Origin: Halioglobus sp.
GTDB lineage: Bacteria > Pseudomonadota > Gammaproteobacteria > Pseudomonadales > Halieaceae
DNA: 64,000 nucleotides
Assembly (NCBI GenBank): GCA_029246385.1
Contig: JAQWNG010000015.1
Coordinates: 186,001-250,000, forward strand
Direction: 5' to 3'
Shown here one piece after another: positions 46,900 through 56,529 of this stretch; the stretch's first letter is position 1; each line of letters starts with the position of its first letter. Below the pieces are notes generated by a model. It was given only the letters and a program-made list of their open reading frames with translations. It had not been told where the DNA came from and searched no databases. Made by a program: the position numbers and the translations under genes.

Positions 46900-47739
46900 C
46901 TAACGAAACCGCATCACGCCCTGCTGCATTGTGGTTGCTACCAGGCGTCCCTCCCGCGTATAGAAACTGCCGCTGGCTAGACCCCGACCGCCACCGATGC
47001 GCTCAGCCTTGACGGTATGTAACAACCATTCATCAGCACGGAAATCCTCGTGAAACCAGAGCGCGTGGTCTAGACTCGCAACCTGAAAACCAACATGCGC
47101 AAAATGTCGTCCATGTGCTATCAAGCAAACGTCAAGAAGGACTGCGTCAGACAAATACGCAAGTACCGCCTGATGCAGCCCGAGTTGATCCGGCATCGGG
47201 CCAACTGTCTTCATCCACGCTTGTAAGACAGGTTTTCGTGCCACCGGGTTATCCCAGTCTACGGGCTCGACAAGACGAATATCCAAGTCTTCTCCGTTAG
47301 TGATCATAAAATTTTCATCCAAATTATCGCGTTCCAGGCTTAGCTGGCGCTCACTGGGGAGTGCATCTGGAGGAGCCACCAGCGGCATATCAGGCTGATA
47401 GTCATCACCGGTCGAGGGCATCTGGAATGACAGCGAACTGACCAGAATAGGCTTGCCTCCCTGCAGCGCGACCACACGGCGGGAACTGAAACTCAGACCG
47501 TCTCGGGCAACTTCTACTTCAAATATAATGGGTTTAGTCGGATCGCCTGGGCGCAGAAAATATGCATGCTGAGAATGCACAATACGGTCGGGCGCAACGG
47601 TTGCCACTGCAGCACTGACGCACTGCGCCAATACCTGACCGCCATAAACCCTAAAAGCAGCAGGATGCATGTTGCCAGCACTAAATTTATGCTCGCCCAG
47701 AGACTGAGGCGTTAGTACGTCGAGAAGTGTATTGAGCAC
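46900..47739 (-). CDS. tesB: Acyl-CoA thioesterase II
   Basis: This double hotdog TesB-type thioesterase has about 279 residues. The N-terminal half starts like TesB (LNTLLDVLTPQSLGEHKFSA, then YGGQVLAQ), and the C-terminal hotdog has LDHALWFHEDFRADEWLL and GRLVATTMQQGVMR with the catalytic glutamine. It hydrolyses acyl-CoA to free acid and CoA. The start is uncertain. A GTG at 47739 gives the family's N-terminal length, but the GTG at 47820 is preceded by AAGGGA. The open frame continues further 5' into the divergent DUF1445 gene. Confidence 0.88.
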   Translation of the reverse strand: MLNTLLDVLTPQSLGEHKFSAGNMHPAAFRVYGGQVLAQCVSAAVATVAPDRIVHSQHAYFLRPGDPTKPIIFEVEVARDGLSFSSRRVVALQGGKPILVSSLSFQMPSTGDDYQPDMPLVAPPDALPSERQLSLERDNLDENFMITNGEDLDIRLVEPVDWDNPVARKPVLQAWMKTVGPMPDQLGLHQAVLAYLSDAVLLDVCLIAHGRHFAHVGFQVASLDHALWFHEDFRADEWLLHTVKAERIGGGRGLASGSFYTREGRLVATTMQQGVMRFR

Positions 47740-47897
47740 GATTGCTACCAGATTGTTAATTGGGGCGTTATTATCCAGATTTGTGGCGCAATGCCAAATC
47801 TCGTTTGTCGACAGCTGCACGAGGCAATATCCCTTACGGTCGATATATTTGATATTCTTCACCCTGCACGCACTAGTGACCGAGACAAGGAAGGGCC

Positions 47898-48677
47898 ATG
47901 GACAGCACAGTAACGCCGCAAGCGCTGCGCCGCGCGATATGTTCAGGAACTTATACTGACAACACGTCGGGCATGGCAGCGGGTTTCGTACAATGCAATG
48001 TGGTAATTCTCCCTGCCGAAAATGCCATGGACTTTCTCCGTTTTTGCCAGATAAATCCCAAGCCTTGCCCACTCATTGCCTTAGGGGACCCAGACGTCAC
48101 AGCGTTACCGGGGCTGGGAGATATCGATATCTGCACCGATCTGCCGCGTTATCGGGTATTCCGCCAAGGTAACGTTACGGAAGAAGTCACGGACATCGCA
48201 GCACTGTGGCGCGGTGATCTAGTGACTTTTGCGCTGGGTTGTTTGTTTTCTTTTGAAGACGCGCTGCTGGCCGATGGGCTGGAGGTACGTAACGTGAGTC
48301 AGAGGCTAAACGTCCTCATGTACCAGACCGATATTCACTGTGCTGACTCAGGAGACCTTTTTCGAGTAAAATGGTGGTCAGCATGCGTCCGTTCAACGCC
48401 AGCGATGCCATTCGCGCTATTCAAATTTGCACCCGGTTTCCCGCAGTGCACCCTAGTTCACTTGGGCGACCCGAGGTTAATAGGCATTGAGGATCTGGAG
48501 CGACCGGATTATGGTGATGCCGTGCAGATATATGAGGCTGAAATTCCGCTCTTCTGGGCCTGCGGTGTCACTCCACAAGTGGCTCTGGCTGCAGCCCGAC
48601 TGCCTTTTGCCATCACCCACAGTCCGGGATGTATGCTGATCACTGACATGCACAACAGCCAATTGGCAGTGCTATAA
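47898..48677 (+). CDS. DUF1445 (DGLUCY N-terminal-type) protein with double frameshift
   Basis: This 259-residue member of the putative hydro-lyase family DUF1445 has the hallmark segments [49 protein letters not shown] and [11 protein letters not shown]. In mammals this domain is the N-terminal half of D-glutamate cyclase. Residues 157-186 do not match the family. The +2 frame over 48368-48460 reads [19 protein letters not shown] and then ICTRFPAVH, the conserved family sequence. One base is thus missing near 48366 (GTAAAA for GGTAAAA) and frame is regained near 48455. AAGGAAGG precedes the ATG. It is the first gene of the D-glutamate operon. Confidence 0.85.
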
Positions 48678-48692
48678 AAACAGGGAAAATCG

Positions 48693-49424
48693 ATGCAACT
48701 CAACTGTGATCTAGGCGAAAGCTATGGCAGCTGGAATAATGGACATGATGCTGCCGTAATGCCCTATATTGACCAAGCAAGTATTGCTTGCGGCTTTCAC
48801 GCAGGCGACCCACTCACTATGCGTAATACGCTGGCAATAGCTGCAAAATACGACGTCGCAATCGGTGCCCATCCCGCCTACCCCGATATTGTCGGTTTTG
48901 GTCGTCGCAGCATGGCGCTCAGCCGCGATGAAATCATTACCTGCCTGCACTATCAAGTGTCAGCACTGGAGGGCATGGCCCAGAGTCAGGGGTTAGCGCT
49001 CGCCTACGTCAAACCGCACGGTGCCTTGTATCACGACATGATGGCGCAGGAGGACGTACGCGCAGCCGTTTTCGATGCGATGGCCAGCCACCATCAACCA
49101 CTGGCACTCATACTGCAGTCCACGCAGCGGATCGATAGCCACAGAGAGGAAGCGAAGCTCGCCGGCATAAAAGTATTATTCGAAGCGTTTGCCGATCGCT
49201 GCTATGCCGACAACGGCGGCCTCGTCCACAGAAGCCAGCCAGGCGCGTTACTCGACCGTGAGCGCATGTTAGCGCAAGTGCAGCAATTGCAGCAAGATAG
49301 CACTATAACCAGCTTGAGTGGCCAGCGCATTGCTCTCCAAGTCGACACCCTTTGCGTTCACGGTGACAACCCAGAAGGCGTAAAGTCCATCGCAGCGATT
49401 CGTGCGTTGGTGGACGCGGACTAA
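48693..49424 (+). CDS. pxpA: 5-oxoprolinase subunit A (LamB/YcsF family)
   Basis: This 243-residue PxpA has LNCDLGESYGSW, ACGFHAGDPLTMRNT, GAHPAYPD, YVKPHGALYHDM and VDTLCVHGDNPEG, all typical of the LamB/YcsF family. PxpA, with PxpBC, opens 5-oxoproline to glutamate at the cost of ATP. The gene begins 15 bases after DUF1445 and is six bases before pxpB. Confidence 0.93.
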   Translation: MQLNCDLGESYGSWNNGHDAAVMPYIDQASIACGFHAGDPLTMRNTLAIAAKYDVAIGAHPAYPDIVGFGRRSMALSRDEIITCLHYQVSALEGMAQSQGLALAYVKPHGALYHDMMAQEDVRAAVFDAMASHHQPLALILQSTQRIDSHREEAKLAGIKVLFEAFADRCYADNGGLVHRSQPGALLDRERMLAQVQQLQQDSTITSLSGQRIALQVDTLCVHGDNPEGVKSIAAIRALVDAD

Positions 49425-49430
49425 ACCACT

Positions 49431-50111
49431 GTGAAACTACGCATAGCGGGCGAAGATGCCCTAATGGTCTATTTTGGAGACGTCATGAATGCTCAGACTT
49501 CTGCTCGCATTCAGGCCGCAACCAGCGCCATCGAACATGCCATGGGCGAGGACCTTATCGATTTGGTCCCCTCCTATGCTTCCGTCTTGATTCTCTACAA
49601 CCCCTTACGTACCAACCACGTAAGTGTCGCAAGACGCGTGCGCAGCGCCCTTGCCACTGCCTCCGCGCCCATTGCCGCAGAGCATCGCACTATCGTGCTG
49701 CCAGTTTACTATGCCACTGAGGCAGGTATAGATCTCGAGCCTTTGGCCGCACGCGCGGGCTTATCAATTAATACAGTCATCGAGCTCCACACACGCGCTG
49801 AATACAGGGTCTACGCGATTGGTTTCGCGCCTGGCTTTGCCTACCTGGGGGAAGTAGATGAACGCATTGCAGCACCGCGTTTGCACACGCCCAGAGCCGT
49901 TGTCCCCGGTGGCTCAGTTGCCATAGCCGATCGACAAACTGCCGTTTACCCCTCCGCTTCGCCCGGTGGCTGGAATCTGATCGGCCGCTGCCCAGTGACA
50001 ATGTTTGACCCCAACATCCAGCCCTGCATGCCTGTGTCCGTTGGTGACACGGTGCGCTTTGAAGCGATCAGTCGCGAACACTTTCTGACCCTAGGAGGCA
50101 ATCTGGCATGA
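49431..50111 (+). CDS. pxpB: 5-oxoprolinase subunit B
   Basis: This 226-residue PxpB (KipI-like fold) starts at a GTG. It contains YRVYAIGFAPGFAYLG and PRAVVPGGSVAIADRQTAVYP, the kinase-like active region of the PxpB-PxpC complex, which phosphorylates 5-oxoproline. Its stop overlaps the start of pxpC by four bases (ATGA), so the two subunits are translationally coupled. Confidence 0.92.
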   Translation: MKLRIAGEDALMVYFGDVMNAQTSARIQAATSAIEHAMGEDLIDLVPSYASVLILYNPLRTNHVSVARRVRSALATASAPIAAEHRTIVLPVYYATEAGIDLEPLAARAGLSINTVIELHTRAEYRVYAIGFAPGFAYLGEVDERIAAPRLHTPRAVVPGGSVAIADRQTAVYPSASPGGWNLIGRCPVTMFDPNIQPCMPVSVGDTVRFEAISREHFLTLGGNLA

Positions 50112-51043
50112 CTATGCGCGTGGTACAATCTGGCGTGCTCAGCTTGCTGCAGGATAGTGGACGGCAGGGTCAGCACCGCATCGGCCTGAGCAATGGCGGG
50201 CCAATGGATAGAGAGGCCTTTCACTACTGCAATCGTCTACTGGAAAACGCGCCCGCTAGCACTGTCATCGAAATCAGTGTTGGTGGTCTGCAACTGAAAA
50301 CCCTAGTCGATACTTATATTTGCCTTACCGGTGCGACCATGCCACTCAGTATTAACGGTCATGAGAAAGCGTTATGGGCGGTGCAACGCGTGTGCGCTGG
50401 CGACATCATAGACGTCGGCTTCGCGAAGTCCGGCTGCCGCAGTTATTTTGGCGTGGCAGATGGCTTTACCATTAAAGCCAGTTTTGGCAGCACTGCAACA
50501 GTAGTCAGAGAAAATATTGGGGGCCTGCAGGGCCATAGCTTACACGTTGGCGATGAACTGCCCTGCCCCACTGTCACTGCGCGCAAACAGTATTATTTGG
50601 CCGACAGGGATCAGCCCCGCTATCAGAATACGCTCACTGTCCGCGTTATCCCGGGCTATCAGCAGCGCCATTTCAACCGCGTCGAGCAACGTCGCTTTTT
50701 TGGCAGCACCTATCGCATATCCGAGCGCTGCGATCGCATGGGCTATCGACTAGAGGGCCCTGTTATAGCATGCGATATTCAGGGTGTGCTATCCGAAGGC
50801 ATCTGCTTTGGTTCAATCCAATTGCCACCGGATGGGCAACCCATAGTATTGCTCAATGATCGCCAAACCATCGGAGGATACCCGAAAATTGGCGCAGCGT
50901 TGTCGCTGGATGTCGCACGTATGACCCAGTTAGTGCCGGGGAACAGCGTGCACTTTGCACCCATAACTCACCACACCGCCCGCAAGGCCGTTGAGTGGGC
51001 TCAGCTTTTTACGCTGCGCAAGGCGTTGCAGGAGCACCGATAA
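50108..51043 (+). CDS. pxpC: 5-oxoprolinase subunit C
   Basis: This 311-residue PxpC (KipA/urea amidolyase C-terminal-like) has LLQDSGRQGQHRIGLSNGGPMD, YFGVADGF and LPPDGQPIVLLNDRQTIGGYP. It pairs with PxpB. The start overlaps pxpB, and the stop overlaps the ATG of DUF4392 (TAATG), showing tight operon packing. Confidence 0.92.
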   Translation: MTMRVVQSGVLSLLQDSGRQGQHRIGLSNGGPMDREAFHYCNRLLENAPASTVIEISVGGLQLKTLVDTYICLTGATMPLSINGHEKALWAVQRVCAGDIIDVGFAKSGCRSYFGVADGFTIKASFGSTATVVRENIGGLQGHSLHVGDELPCPTVTARKQYYLADRDQPRYQNTLTVRVIPGYQQRHFNRVEQRRFFGSTYRISERCDRMGYRLEGPVIACDIQGVLSEGICFGSIQLPPDGQPIVLLNDRQTIGGYPKIGAALSLDVARMTQLVPGNSVHFAPITHHTARKAVEWAQLFTLRKALQEHR

Positions 51044-51891
51044 TGCAGGAGCAGCAACTCAGCGAGTCGATTGAAAAGCTGTTGGTGTCGAGCAATCCGC
51101 GACATATGGCCGTCGCTAAAGCAGCGCTCAAGCCTAGCTATTATCTGCGCGGTGCAAGACATCTGCGAGACATCACCGGCTCGGTTATCATTGGTACTGG
51201 CTTTCCGGTGTCTGACACTTTTGAAACCGATGGACCGGTTCGCGCCATGGCACTTTATCAAGCTTTAGAGACTCTGGGTGCATGCCCCTATATCGCATGC
51301 GGAGCATCGCTGGCCCACGCACTCGCGACTGACTATCGCATAGTGCAGTTAACCGCACGTGACCAACAAGCGGCATGCCTGGAAGCGACGGCTCAACTAT
51401 TAGCCTTGCAACCAAAGGCTATCGTCGCGATCGAATGTCCAGGAATCGCTGCAGATAGTCGTTATTATAATATGCGGGGGAAAGACATTACCGCCGAATG
51501 TTTTTATTTCGACCCCTTCATCAACCAAGCCAATTGCCCTACCATTGCAATTGGGGACGGTGGCAATGAAATCGGTATGGGTAATATAGCCAAAACGCTG
51601 GCAGGTCTCGACATCACCGCCTCGATGGCCTGCTGCCGCGAACTACTGGTAGCGGATGTCTCTAACTGGGGCGCCTATGGCCTAATCGCTTTTTTGGGCT
51701 TATGGTCGCAGCAAGATTTGTTGGCGAATATCTCGTCAGAGGAGTTATTTAACTATCTCTCTGCCCGCGGCAGCGTTGACGGCATAACCGGAAAAAATAC
51801 GCTCACTGAAGACGGGCTGCCGTCCTTTAAGGGAGCCAGAATTATTGAGAAATTGCGCGTGCTCACACATTTTTCGCCGCGCACAACATAG
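51043..51891 (+). CDS. DUF4392 protein (DGLUCY C-terminal-type, D-glutamate cyclase domain)
   Basis: This 282-residue protein is of the DUF4392 family, the C-terminal half of mammalian D-glutamate cyclase (DGLUCY), which turns D-glutamate into 5-oxo-D-proline. The hallmark GDGGNEIGMG (residues 171-180), the ETDGPVRAMALYQAL segment and the IVAIECPGIAADSRYYNMRG region are clear. The ATG overlaps pxpC. In mammals this domain is fused to DUF1445; here it is separate and on the other side of pxpABC, within the same operon. Confidence 0.88.
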   Translation: MQEQQLSESIEKLLVSSNPRHMAVAKAALKPSYYLRGARHLRDITGSVIIGTGFPVSDTFETDGPVRAMALYQALETLGACPYIACGASLAHALATDYRIVQLTARDQQAACLEATAQLLALQPKAIVAIECPGIAADSRYYNMRGKDITAECFYFDPFINQANCPTIAIGDGGNEIGMGNIAKTLAGLDITASMACCRELLVADVSNWGAYGLIAFLGLWSQQDLLANISSEELFNYLSARGSVDGITGKNTLTEDGLPSFKGARIIEKLRVLTHFSPRTT

Positions 51892-51921
51892 CGAGATTGC
51901 AGTGAACCAGCAGGTACATGA

Positions 51922-52779
51922 ATGAGTATTGTTTATCTAAACGGCAATTATATACCGATGAATGAAGCCCGCATCTCGCCCATGGATCGCGGCTTCTTAT
52001 TCGGTGACGGCATCTATGAGGTGATCCCCTCCTATGACGGAAAACTTGTTGGCTTGGCTCTGCATTTGAAGCGCATGCAGGACGGGTTGAACGCAATAGA
52101 AATTGACCTGCAAATAGATTACGAGCGTTGGCAGGACATTGCGTTACAACTAATTGCGCGCAATGGCAGTGGCAACCTCGGGCTGTATTTTCAAATCAGT
52201 CGCGGCGCTGACACGAAGCGCGACCACGCCTATCCTGATAAAGTGCAACCGACTGTCTTTGTTTTCGCCTATGAAATTCCGCCCGCATCGAAGGCAGACA
52301 AAAATTCTGCCATACCCTTATCTGTCGTAACGGCTAAGGACTTGCGCTGGCAACGTTGTAATATTAAATCGACATCGCTGTTGGGCAATGTTATGCACTA
52401 TCAACAAAGCCAGCCCGGCGGACACAGCGAAACGATTTTGTATAACGATGCGCATGAAATCACAGAAGCCTCAAAAAGCAACGTGTATGTCATTAAAAAT
52501 GGCATAGTTGCCACGCCGCTATTAGACAACCAAAAGTTACCCGGTGTTACGCGGAAAACCCTACTTGAGATTTTATATCGCGATGGCAATATAGCAGTTG
52601 AAGAGCGCATAGTAGCACTCGCTGAATTGAAAGACGCAGATGAGGTCTGGCTTTCCAATTCCACTCGAGGCCTTATTCCGGTGACCGCAGTAAACGAGAA
52701 ACCCGTCGCTGACGGAAAAATTGGCGATGTCTGGCTGGCAGCGCAAACACTCTATGCCACCCATAAGTTTGACCTCTAA
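51922..52779 (+). CDS. D-amino-acid transaminase
   Basis: This 285-residue fold-type IV PLP enzyme has MDRGFLFGDGIYEVIPSYDG, the RGxxxRxH D-amino-acid motif (Arg94, Arg100, His102) and the PLP lysine Lys149 in CNIKSTSLLGN. The RxH pair binds the alpha-carboxylate and marks D-amino-acid transaminases rather than branched-chain ones. It exchanges the amino group between D-alanine and 2-oxoglutarate, giving pyruvate and D-glutamate or the reverse. The ATG follows the DUF4392 stop by 30 bases; its own stop overlaps alr. Confidence 0.9.
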   Translation: MSIVYLNGNYIPMNEARISPMDRGFLFGDGIYEVIPSYDGKLVGLALHLKRMQDGLNAIEIDLQIDYERWQDIALQLIARNGSGNLGLYFQISRGADTKRDHAYPDKVQPTVFVFAYEIPPASKADKNSAIPLSVVTAKDLRWQRCNIKSTSLLGNVMHYQQSQPGGHSETILYNDAHEITEASKSNVYVIKNGIVATPLLDNQKLPGVTRKTLLEILYRDGNIAVEERIVALAELKDADEVWLSNSTRGLIPVTAVNEKPVADGKIGDVWLAAQTLYATHKFDL

Positions 52780-53858
52780 TGACCCGACCCACTCAAGCGA
52801 AACTTAATCTTAGCGCGTTACGCCATAATGTCAGTGTGGCGCGCGAGCTAGCGCCACAGTCCAAAGTGATGGCCGTTGTTAAAGCTAATGCCTATGGCCA
52901 CGGCGCAGCAATCATTGCCGGCGCACTCCAATCCCATGCGGATGCTTTTGCTGTTGCCAGTATCGAAGAAGCCGCTGCACTTCGTGGTTCCGGCATTACA
53001 CGGCCCATACTCCTTTTGGAGGGTCTGTTCGATGAATCCGAATTAGGCATTGCAGCCCAACTTGACGTCTGGCTAAGCATCCACAACCAGCAGCAACTGC
53101 AGTGGCTTGAAGGTGCAGAATTGTCCGACCCCCTGACCTGCTGGCTTAAGATCGACACTGGCATGAATCGTCTTGGCGTCACGCCGGATAACGCATTGCA
53201 CTATCATCAGCGGCTAGTGAACACGCCTAATGCTACTGATGGCACCGTCGCCTATACGCATTTCGCTGCCGCAGATGATGTGCAGAATTTGCAAACACAG
53301 CGACAGATCGATGCCTTCGATAACTTAACTTTTAACGTCACACGCAGCGCAGCAAATTCTGCAGCAGTGCTCGCTTGGCCGTTGACGCATTACGACTGGG
53401 TGCGACCGGGCTATATGCTGTATGGCAATTCGCCCATGACACAGGACCACCCCAATGCTCGAACACTGAAACCAGTCATGACACTGACTTCCGCTGTGAT
53501 CGCCTTGCACGACGTTGCTGCCGGTGAATCTGTTGGATACGGCGGCACTTGGGTTGCGCAGCGCCCTTCTGTCATTGCCACAGTCACTATCGGCTATGGC
53601 GATGGCTACCCCCGCGAAGCACCCAACGGGACGCCGATACTTGTCAACGGTCAACGCGCCGCACTCGCAGGTCGCGTCTCCATGGACATGATTACTGTCG
53701 ATGTCACAGACCTCGAACACGTTCAGCTTGGGAGCGAGGTCGTGCTGTGGGGCTCAGGCCTGCCACTGGGAGAAGTGGCTCGCTGGGCCAACACTATCGG
53801 TTACGAGCTCACCACACGAATGCCGCAGCGCACACTCAGGGTTGTCGTCAATGCGTAG
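52779..53858 (+). CDS. alr: Alanine racemase
   Basis: This 359-residue racemase has the PLP lysine Lys35 in VVKANAYGHG, the tyrosine in GYGGTW, RVSMDMITVDVTD and a C-terminal VVLWG motif. It interconverts L- and D-alanine. The ATG overlaps the stop of the transaminase (TAATG), so the two are translationally coupled. It is likely to be a catabolic racemase given its partners, though a cell-wall role cannot be excluded. Confidence 0.93.
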   Translation: MTRPTQAKLNLSALRHNVSVARELAPQSKVMAVVKANAYGHGAAIIAGALQSHADAFAVASIEEAAALRGSGITRPILLLEGLFDESELGIAAQLDVWLSIHNQQQLQWLEGAELSDPLTCWLKIDTGMNRLGVTPDNALHYHQRLVNTPNATDGTVAYTHFAAADDVQNLQTQRQIDAFDNLTFNVTRSAANSAAVLAWPLTHYDWVRPGYMLYGNSPMTQDHPNARTLKPVMTLTSAVIALHDVAAGESVGYGGTWVAQRPSVIATVTIGYGDGYPREAPNGTPILVNGQRAALAGRVSMDMITVDVTDLEHVQLGSEVVLWGSGLPLGEVARWANTIGYELTTRMPQRTLRVVVNA

Positions 53859-53923
53859 CCACAGACTATCTGCCTATTCACTATGGTCGATACGTCAGGC
53901 AGACACCCATCAACGAGGTCAAT

Positions 53924-55450
53924 ATGCCGTCCAATGAGCAGGCGAGCACGCTGCTGCACCATTTAATCGAACGACATGCCGGCGCAGAACCCGACAGCGT
54001 CGCGCTATGGTGGCGCGGTAACGCGATCAACTACGCCAGTCTTTACCGCAGTGCCATGTCTGTGGGGACACGCTTGGCCGCAAGCGGCATAGCAGGCGAT
54101 CGCATAGCCATACTGTCATGGAACTGCCCCCAATTTGTAGAGCTGATTTACGGTGCCACTGCCGCCGGTAGGATTCTGGTGCCACTGAACGCGAGACTTG
54201 CGCCCGCAGAGTTAATCTATCAGCTGAACTCTGCCGGCGTGACTATGCTATTCGGTGATCGGGAATTACTGCAACCGGTACTCGCACACACGAACTTTGC
54301 ATCGGCTACTCAGACTGTTTATCTGGACGAGGACTATCTCAATTGGCGCGATTCTGGTCCTCACGCACAACTGCCGGCGACTAAAACAGAGGATCCGGCA
54401 TTGATACTGTTTACCTCTGGCTCCACTGGTCGGCCCAAGGGGGCAATGCTAAGCCATCGTTCATTGATGGCAGGATTACGCTCAGCGGCACTGCCGCGAC
54501 CGGTGCGGCCATCCGACAAATACTATTACCCATTCCCGTTATTTCACGTATCCGCTCACAATGTCCTGCTACAACATTTGTACGGTGCCGCAGTTGTACT
54601 GGCGCGCTCATTCGATGCCACTGACACTCTCACCGCCTGCAGTGAACTACAGGTGACGACAATGTCCCTCGCGCCCACCATGATCGCGCTATTACTGGAT
54701 CATCCCAGCTTCACTCCAGCGCATCTGACCTCAGTGCGTACCATTGGTTACGGTGCCTCAGCAATGCCGCGAACACTGTTGCAGAGGCTGCTGACCGACA
54801 CCGATGTAGGCCTGTGCCAAAGTTACGGCATGACAGAACTGGCCGGGAGTGTGTCATTCCTCACGGTAGAGGATCATCAAAAAGCTGCTCTAGATCAACC
54901 AGAGTTACTGCAATCGGTAGGCCGCCCCCTCGCCACGGCACAACTCAAATTGATCGACGAGCAAGGACGTGAATGTGCCACAGGTGCAGCCGGTGAGATT
55001 CTGGTCAAGGCCGCACAGTGCATGATCGGATATTGGGGTGATGATGCCGCCACTGCACTGGCAATGGATGATGGTTGGTTGCTCACCGGAGACATTGGCC
55101 GCTTTGATGACGACGGTTACCTGTACATTGTCGACCGCAAAAAAGACATGATTATCAGTGGCGGGGAAAATATTGCGTCCCGAGAAGTCGAGGAAGTTTT
55201 GCGCCAACACGCGTCAGTCAGAGATTGCGCGATCATCGCCTTGCCACACCCCAAATGGGGCGAAACTCCCTGCGCAGTAGTTCGGCTCACGAATGATGTC
55301 AGCGACACGGAGCTCCGCACTCACTGCCGTGCACGCTTAGCCCGTTACAAAATCCCCGGACAATGGATACGCGTCGACGACCTGCCTCTCAACGCCTCTG
55401 GAAAGATCGACAAACCCCTCCTCAGGCGACTCTATGCAACCTCGAGCTAG
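53924..55450 (+). CDS. Acyl-CoA synthetase (AMP-forming)
   Basis: This 508-residue adenylate-forming ligase has ILFTSGSTGRPKGAMLSH, YGMTELAGSVSFL, GWLLTGDIGRFDDDGYLYIVDRKKDMIISGG (read in pieces) and LNASGKIDKPLLRRL. It activates an unidentified acid. The ATG at 53924 has GAGG six bases before; the frame extends further 5' into alr, which is not coding in that frame. It follows alr by 65 bases in the D-glutamate operon, an odd companion for amino-acid enzymes. Confidence 0.9.
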   Translation: MPSNEQASTLLHHLIERHAGAEPDSVALWWRGNAINYASLYRSAMSVGTRLAASGIAGDRIAILSWNCPQFVELIYGATAAGRILVPLNARLAPAELIYQLNSAGVTMLFGDRELLQPVLAHTNFASATQTVYLDEDYLNWRDSGPHAQLPATKTEDPALILFTSGSTGRPKGAMLSHRSLMAGLRSAALPRPVRPSDKYYYPFPLFHVSAHNVLLQHLYGAAVVLARSFDATDTLTACSELQVTTMSLAPTMIALLLDHPSFTPAHLTSVRTIGYGASAMPRTLLQRLLTDTDVGLCQSYGMTELAGSVSFLTVEDHQKAALDQPELLQSVGRPLATAQLKLIDEQGRECATGAAGEILVKAAQCMIGYWGDDAATALAMDDGWLLTGDIGRFDDDGYLYIVDRKKDMIISGGENIASREVEEVLRQHASVRDCAIIALPHPKWGETPCAVVRLTNDVSDTELRTHCRARLARYKIPGQWIRVDDLPLNASGKIDKPLLRRLYATSS

Positions 55451-56529
55451 CAGTTGTCCTGTGAATCAAGAAAATCGGAAAACGCAGTCTCGTAGAGTTT
55501 GAACAACACCAACGCGAGCGAAAATACGAGGGGACCATAAATAAGACCGATCAATCCGAACACCTGAAGGCCTCCTATAATCGAGAAAAAAACCACCACA
55601 GTGCTCATACTCGCACCCTGCATTAACAGAGGGCGTAAAAAGTTATCGATTGACCCCGTCACTACGACGCCCCACACCACCAAAAATCCGGCCCAGCCCA
55701 TTTCACCGGTGAACGCCAAATACAGCGCAGCCGGAACCCAAATCAATGCTGTGCCCACCAATGGTATCAGCGAGGCAAACGCCATCACCGCACCCCAGAA
55801 AAGGCCAGGAAACCCAGCAAGCCACAAACCAAACCCGCCAACAACCCCCTGAGCTACGGCCGTCAAAAAAGAGCCCATCAGGGCAGATTTGCTGACCGTT
55901 TGCACCTCATCAAACAGCGTATCTTCCGCGCTACGTGACAACGGTAGAGCGCGATGCATAAAAGCGATTAGTATTTCACGGTCCCGCAACACAAAAAATA
56001 ATACAAACAGCAACAACATGAAATGCACAACGAACAGGGTCATACTGCCCAATATCGATGTCGATATTGAAGCAAGATGGCTCCCCATCGCGCCCGCGGC
56101 TGCTAGCGCCTTAGCACGAATATTATCGGGGTCGAGTGCGCCCTCTGGCAGAATCTGCGTCACCCGCAATTGCGCTTCATGCAACCAGGGATGCGACATA
56201 ACCTGATGTATATTATCTGAGGTTGCCCATTCCCGAACGACCACAGAATAGCTAATACCCTGCTTAAGGACAGCGACCAGTAACACTAGTGTGGGCAACA
56301 AAATTATCAATAAAAGCGCAAGACAGCTAATAAGCGAGGCGATGGTTTCACGCCCTCGCAGTAGGGAAACCAGGCGCTCATGAGCCGGATATGCCAATAA
56401 GCCAATCAATATGGCCATAATAATGGGCTGTAAGAAGGGTTTGACCATCCAGTAACAGCCATATAACGCGACCCCAAGAAAAATTAACAGCACCACGCGA
56501 TGGGCGCTACCCTCAAGCTGAGACTGCAT
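55447..56529 (-). CDS. AI-2E family transporter
   Basis: This 360-residue integral membrane protein of the AI-2E exporter (PerM/YdiK/TqsA) family has about eight hydrophobic segments, including FVVHFMLLLFVLFFVLRD and LVVWGVVVTGSIDNFLRPLLMQG. The conserved FWGAVMAFASLIPLVGT loop of the family is present. The substrate is unknown; members export signals or act as sodium/proton antiporters. The gene is convergent with and overlaps the ligase gene by four bases. Confidence 0.88.
   Translation of the reverse strand: MQSQLEGSAHRVVLLIFLGVALYGCYWMVKPFLQPIIMAILIGLLAYPAHERLVSLLRGRETIASLISCLALLLIILLPTLVLLVAVLKQGISYSVVVREWATSDNIHQVMSHPWLHEAQLRVTQILPEGALDPDNIRAKALAAAGAMGSHLASISTSILGSMTLFVVHFMLLLFVLFFVLRDREILIAFMHRALPLSRSAEDTLFDEVQTVSKSALMGSFLTAVAQGVVGGFGLWLAGFPGLFWGAVMAFASLIPLVGTALIWVPAALYLAFTGEMGWAGFLVVWGVVVTGSIDNFLRPLLMQGASMSTVVVFFSIIGGLQVFGLIGLIYGPLVFSLALVLFKLYETAFSDFLDSQDNC

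Follow-up and report, generated by a model that had tools for sequence, protein, structure and literature searches.

A conserved operon of Halieaceae and other Gammaproteobacteria with a proposed role in D-glutamate homeostasis without MurI

A stretch of 64,000 nucleotides from the genome of Halioglobus sp. (contig JAQWNG010000015.1, positions 186,001 to 250,000; the whole stretch is referred to here as the window) was found to carry seven closely packed plus-strand genes encoding, in order, a DUF1445 protein, the three 5-oxoprolinase subunits PxpA, PxpB and PxpC, a DUF4392 protein, a D-amino-acid-transaminase-like enzyme (DAT) and an alanine racemase (Alr). These genes are proposed to act as an operon for D-glutamate homeostasis in Gammaproteobacteria that form D-glutamate without MurI, Alr and DAT serving as a supply arm and DUF4392/DUF1445 together with PxpABC as a removal arm, a proposal that we consider evenly poised between right and wrong. 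Support for the supply arm is good; the chemistry of the removal arm, above all the conversion of 5-oxo-D-proline to L-glutamate, is conjectural.

All catalytic steps set out here are predictions for this organism. In the supply arm, Alr would produce D-alanine, the amino group of which DAT would move to 2-oxoglutarate to give D-glutamate for MurD, and this arm would be essential. DAT flux follows D-alanine and 2-oxoglutarate and is free of MurI's own control, so a sink for D-glutamate would be useful. In the removal arm, the two-metal DUF4392 protein and its partner DUF1445, between which the labour would be divided, may close surplus or recycled D-glutamate to 5-oxo-D-proline, and an operon-specific PxpABC would spend ATP to reopen the lactam to glutamate. 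Were the product L-glutamate, an inversion would be needed at some point, perhaps by DUF1445; were it D-glutamate, the PxpABC step would be repair and not disposal. Two commonly controlled arms, each running one way, would in this manner take the place of the reversible, regulated MurI.

Neither MurI (TIGR00067) nor any member of the entire Asp/Glu racemase family (PF01177) was matched in the genome that carries the window, in searches with controls positive in 10/14. Among 140 Halieaceae genomes, MurI scored above the TIGR00067 cut-off in one, with weak matches below the cut-off in nine others, and some other member of PF01177 was identified in 15 of the 36 Halieaceae genomes tested. The lone MurI-bearing genome (G138:C53; L072, L093) is a metagenome-assembled genome of 420 contigs, and contamination is possible. 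DAT was matched at E < 1e-40 in 128/140 Halieaceae genomes; among the 78 most complete it was matched in 77, and the remaining one (G084) has its Alr at a contig edge. Alr exceeded the TIGR00492 cut-off in 128/140, and the Alr of the operon is the single alanine racemase match in its own genome.

Across a sample of the order (n = 195), DAT was present in 46 of 55 MurI-less genomes vs 23 of 140 MurI-bearing genomes (p = 1.4e-18). DAT was counted as present at 100 bits or more, a threshold chosen after the list had been viewed (the next match scored 96 bits), and two genomes with cut MurI pieces (G213, G300) were scored as lacking MurI. The exchange was also seen when stratified by family (p = 2e-4, six informative families) and when taken by family majority (14/15 vs 4/28, p = 5e-7). 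MurI and DAT replace each other across the order, and relatedness does not account for the pattern. Nine MurI-less genomes of the sample also lack DAT, five of them from a single family (f37), in which 5/7 genomes (G175, G205, G231, G275, G313) have neither MurI nor a 100-bit DAT match. DUF4392 was found in 23 of the 55 MurI-less and 6 of the 140 MurI-bearing genomes (p = 6e-10; within families, p = 0.007).

DAT is encoded at 51922-52779 (plus strand; Pfam 175.2 bits), 30 bases downstream of the DUF4392 gene, and its gene overlaps by one base that of Alr (52779-53858, plus strand; TIGR00492 373.6 bits vs a cut-off of 168). The nearest solved relatives of DAT are D-amino acid aminotransferases. 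Among 22 relatives, residues Y32, R100 and K149 are invariant and H102 is nearly so, K149 presumably being the catalytic lysine. The protein has the class IV fold and the carboxylate trap, described as Y31/R98/H100 in the canonical D-amino acid transaminase (PMC10003956), with the equivalence of positions assigned by motif. At G025:C1:3387585-3388435, DAT is present as two pieces in overlapping frames, which reflects sequencing error or decay.

The supply and removal genes are separable. DUF4392 (PF14336) was identified in 114/140 Halieaceae genomes, representing 27 of 28 genera, and the alr locus was examined in 15 of the 26 DUF4392-less genomes, of which 13 were informative; two loci cut at DAT (L092, L090) were left uncounted. 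At all 13 loci DAT-Alr is retained and DUF1445-pxpABC-DUF4392 is gone from the site, and at 12 of these DAT adjoins a divergent ligase that elsewhere flanks DUF1445. This direct contact with the ligase shows that the accessory genes were lost together. Such a pattern would follow if the cell cannot do without DAT-Alr but can dispense with the block, whose genes work as a unit. With MurI missing and DAT-Alr outlasting the other genes, DAT and the only Alr are read as providing the cell wall with D-glutamate and D-alanine. An earlier note, made from the sequence of this stretch, had seen in these genes a path from D-alanine/D-glutamate to L-glutamate; its D-alanine/D-glutamate/5-oxoproline set is chemically coherent, but one-way salvage is less supported in view of the missing MurI and the retained DAT-Alr.

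Among DUF4392-less genomes, PxpC was identified elsewhere as one gene in G058, G060, G071, G072 and G041 and as two pieces in G070; the copies outside the site are of another type in G058, G060, G071 and G072 and of the operon type in G041. Loci L093-L097 of the same set come from other genomes. L094 is cut, L095 (G112:C8) has several operon genes in broken frames, again through sequencing error or decay, and only L096 and L097 entered the wider tally of 143 loci.

In that tally, 141 loci of which were informative, the gene order never differs, and such recurrence within the family and outside it exceeds what chance would give. It combines three sets (42 Halieaceae loci, 21 from other families of the order and 80 named loci) whose organisms overlap; several loci are truncated at contig ends, and in two DUF4392 is the only gene of the set. 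The complete core of seven genes, arranged as in the window, was found in 36 of the 42 Halieaceae loci, while three lack DUF1445 (one of them cut by a contig end), two lack pxpB and pxpC, and one is a stray DUF4392 copy. The full set was also present in 15/21 loci from other families of the order and in 30 of the 80 named loci, a further 28 of which have all genes except Alr. Named carriers include Halioglobus, Parahaliea, Kineobactrum, Amphritea, Marinobacterium, Oceanospirillum, Colwellia, Rheinheimera, Thiothrix and Sedimenticola, and the nearest named relatives are Halieaceae. Beyond the order DUF4392 is rare, with 3/376 other genomes of a class-wide sample, all of a single genus. The earlier note had stated beforehand that its route would fail if the genes were not kept together in relatives, and the identical order in all 143 loci speaks in its favour. 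Operons lacking pxpBC were considered as proof that PxpBC is dispensable and were rejected as such, PxpC being encoded elsewhere in 5/5 genomes (G001, G004, G141, G181, G258).

The DUF4392 protein (GLUCM-like_C; 51043-51891, plus strand; Pfam 191 bits vs 27.9) is a homologue of the C-terminal half of the mammalian protein DGLUCY and a candidate metal-dependent D-glutamate cyclase. Its gene most likely starts at the ATG at 51043, via a TAATG that gives a one-base overlap with pxpC. Six metal ligands (E77, D79, E147, D188, E192 and D273), placed by alignment onto residues named for the Thermococcus protein TON_0340 (PMC5132392), match those of that protein and are invariant in 20 sequences. In three loci (L227, L236, L238), PxpC and DUF4392 form one protein of 594-621 residues bearing both Pfam domains. 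Distant second copies of DUF4392 (28 and 36% identity) lie outside pxp operons at L053:6373-7389 (G036) and L144:6625-7578 (G229), one of them adjoining genes for a major facilitator superfamily (MFS) protein and a TonB-dependent receptor; as their neighbours are unrelated, they were dropped as a lead. The possibility that DUF4392 is a hidden racemase giving D-glutamate was rejected, since MurI-less genomes without DUF4392 exist.

The DUF1445 protein (PF07286; 47898-48677, plus strand; Pfam 141.9 bits vs a cut-off of 25) is a homologue of the N-terminal half of DGLUCY. It narrowly missed NCBIfam NF003969 (302.7 vs 324), and its solved relatives are 3db9 and 2pif (UPF0317). Its predicted structure (pLDDT 87.9) gave good matches only to its own family; beyond this, only the NrpR-like domain 3nek of Methanocaldococcus was matched (Foldseek E 3e-5, TM 0.39), too weakly to serve as a clue to chemistry. 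NrpR senses 2-oxoglutarate, and together with this weak structural match it suggests that DUF1445 might bind a dicarboxylate.

PxpA (LamB/YcsF family; 48693-49424; gap of 15 bases; NF003816 313.7 bits vs 213), PxpB (49431-50111; gap of 6 bases, GTG start; TIGR00370 172.4 bits vs 145.55) and the PxpC-type subunit (50108-51043; overlap of 4 bases; TIGR00724 240.1 vs 230.2), all on the plus strand, exceed the cut-offs for 5-oxoprolinase subunits A, B and C. PxpC falls below the equivalog NF045499 (209.8 vs 500). Identities to the E. coli proteins are 37, 40 and 32%, respectively. In trees of 59 hand-picked loci, the PxpA and PxpC of the operon form groups separate from E. coli and from stand-alone copies. 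The fork setting the PxpC operon group with L149, L154 and L157 apart has support of 99/94, which places the window's PxpC in an operon-specific subfamily, and the key fork for PxpA has a modest 80/80 from a bootstrap that had not settled. Genome G268 carries both operon-type and other-type Pxp. With a distinct Pxp subfamily, another substrate or enantiomer is conceivable.

The earlier note had described eight plus-strand genes with named domains, and each of the eight proteins indeed exceeds its Pfam cut-off (PF07286 D-Glu_cyclase, LamB_YcsF, CT_C_D, CT_A_B, PF14336 GLUCM-like_C, Aminotran_4, Ala_racemase N and C, and AMP-binding). The tight spacing described there was also confirmed, the seven core genes having gaps of 15, 6 and 30 bases and overlaps of 4, 1 and 1. 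From this spacing and the conservation, we infer that the core genes are transcribed as a single unit; scans for consensus promoters and terminators across 47500-55700 gave counts no higher than in shuffles (7 vs 7.1 and 8 vs 7.9, respectively). The eighth gene, encoding an AMP-dependent ligase (53921-55450, plus strand; AMP-binding domain), follows Alr after a gap of 62 bases. Its start at 53921 is the most likely one as judged from the domain, the open frame extending back into Alr. This ligase was present 3' of Alr in 12/12 loci fetched from the window's own genus and in 0/28 other Halieaceae loci of the same set. As it stands behind alr in own-genus loci only, it is a recent add-on to the operon and was rejected as a member of the system. 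A TesB gene and the second, divergent AMP ligase upstream were also rejected as partners, since that ligase borders the site both with and without the block and is taken as part of the neighbourhood.

Within or next to the operon, 30 named loci carry a LysR-type regulator and 11 an Lrp/AsnC-type one, which fits regulation by an amino acid. A gene with an SLT domain (lytic transglycosylase) lies directly upstream of the block in 5/77 named loci (L201, L205, L214, L232 and L238, of the SAR92/Porticoccaceae group); it links the operon with wall turnover, in agreement with homeostasis and salvage alike. Among the neighbours recurring in at least five named loci, no uptake transporter was seen. A gene for AcrB-type efflux, located some 2.6 kb upstream in nine loci, is taken as a chance neighbour.

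Several points weigh against the homeostasis proposal. DAT scored below the NCBIfam D-amino-acid transaminase equivalog TIGR01121 (206.6 vs 277.45), and the enzyme is for this reason called DAT-like. The block occurs without DAT, within the stretch examined, in 8/80 named loci. In the order sample, DUF4392 is missing from at least 23 genomes that lack MurI and bear DAT, and operons also occur in MurI-bearing genomes: 6/29 in the order sample (one a stray DUF4392) and 6 of 31 further operon-bearing genomes outside its counts, the other 25 having no MurI above the cut-off (for this check, 28 of the 80 named loci were hand-picked). DAT is present in 29/29 DUF4392 genomes of the order sample, yet among DAT genomes the association of DUF4392 with MurI loss is not significant (p = 0.073); the block therefore follows DAT rather than MurI loss itself. 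The racemase search took in TIGR00067 and PF01177, and MurL and DapF were not searched for as sources of D-glutamate. No activity was found reported for any bacterial DUF1445 or DUF4392 protein in the literature searched, and for TON_0340 the reported activity is that of a weak Mn phosphatase, its natural substrate yet to be identified (PMC5132392). Were PxpABC to keep the D-configuration, removal would amount to a futile cycle. A fuller version of the proposal is an ATP-driven, one-way cycle of glutamate deracemisation replacing MurI, in which DAT and Alr would make D-glutamate, and L-glutamate would be regained through DUF4392/DUF1445 and a PxpABC able to accept or epimerise 5-oxo-D-proline. 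Such a cycle would be the first D-glutamate cyclase system of bacteria and would act as a valve controlling wall precursor supply; it is put forward tentatively, as a possibility.

The same enzymes could also serve salvage and stereo-inversion, in which D-alanine and D-glutamate from peptidoglycan turnover or food would reach L-glutamate via DAT, the cyclase and PxpABC, with Alr feeding in. The LysR-type and Lrp/AsnC-type regulators would fit such inducible catabolism and the SLT-domain gene would fit wall turnover, but Alr is the genome's only one, DAT-Alr outlasts the remaining genes, DAT accompanies MurI loss and no uptake transporter recurs alongside; furthermore, with DAT and Alr present, D-glutamate could go to 2-oxoglutarate by transamination, bypassing the cyclase. 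We regard salvage as rather unlikely, but as a rival still to be reckoned with. Plain repair of 5-oxo-L-proline is more improbable again: here PxpABC would mend the spontaneously formed compound as in Bacillus subtilis, with DUF1445 as its usual companion (B. subtilis ycsI is taken by us to belong to this family), DUF4392 as a small-molecule phosphatase or accessory, and DAT and Alr co-housed only as glutamate-related genes. It agrees with the sharing of an operon by ycsI and pxpABC in B. subtilis, where the portion of the source available makes no mention of DUF4392 (PMC10448178), and with the Mn-dependent phosphatase activity of a DUF4392 protein (PMC5132392). The PxpC-DUF4392 fusion in three loci, the presence of DAT in every DUF4392 genome of the order sample and the branching of operon Pxp proteins apart from E. 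coli PxpABC, with both kinds in G268, argue against it. Least probable by far is a second route of D-glutamate synthesis, in which DUF1445/DUF4392 would epimerise and open 5-oxo-L-proline to D-glutamate, bypassing MurI. The block does occur mostly in MurI-less genomes (23/29; 25/31), but MurI-less, DUF4392-less genomes exist and keep DAT, all DUF4392 genomes already have DAT, and lactam opening without ATP is uphill.

If the homeostasis proposal is correct, DUF1445 and DUF4392, two enzymes of disputed function that correspond to the halves of human D-glutamate cyclase, gain a bacterial context that predicts substrate and partners, including a fusion with 5-oxoprolinase. A family of common marine Gram-negatives also seems to make its cell-wall D-glutamate by transamination, which would contradict the textbook view, as worded in PMC5885031, of MurI as the enzyme of Gram-negatives. 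Both claims are directly testable.

The enzyme families are known and the arrangement is new; the combination seems undescribed. The earlier note knew of no such bacterial operon, and no description of one was found in the literature searched, which left most subscription papers outside its reach. DgcN-DgcA of marine Proteobacteria (Yu 2023) likewise concerns marine D-glutamate metabolism, but reportedly proceeds by N-acetylation and racemisation, with other enzymes. Mammalian DGLUCY (C14orf159/9030617O03Rik) shares the DUF1445 and DUF4392 domains, and the mouse enzyme has been shown to convert D-glutamate to 5-oxo-D-proline (PMC5339696); DGLUCY is, however, one mitochondrial protein without a PxpABC, DAT or Alr partner, whereas here the two domains are encoded by separate genes flanking pxpABC. 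A survey table lists human DGLUCY with six split and no full-length gut-bacterial homologues and, in the part available, gives no function (PMC12547972). The PxpABC work found in the literature searched concerns 5-oxo-L-proline (PMC13274462), while the product of the mouse enzyme is 5-oxo-D-proline, and a conversion of this D form to L-glutamate is conjectural. The same three subunits occur in the clusters of B. subtilis (ycsF-ycsG-ycsI-kipIAR), Corynebacterium glutamicum (pxpTABC) and E. coli (pxpBCA), but these clusters lack DUF4392, DAT and Alr. In B. subtilis the operon contains ycsI as well (PMC10448178), that of C. glutamicum adds a transporter (PMC13274462), and only ybgI and nei adjoin pxpBCA in the stretch of E. 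coli read. Chlamydia DapF and Xanthomonas MurD2-MurL likewise provide peptidoglycan D-glutamate without MurI but are other enzymes than those found here (PMC5885031, PMC8788868), and the published MurL list, in the portion available, names no Halieaceae (PMC8788868). DAT is itself a recognised alternative to MurI (PMC8788868), and its canonical residues are kept here; the difference is that in Halieaceae it would be the sole route of a whole Gram-negative family, tied to a disposal module.

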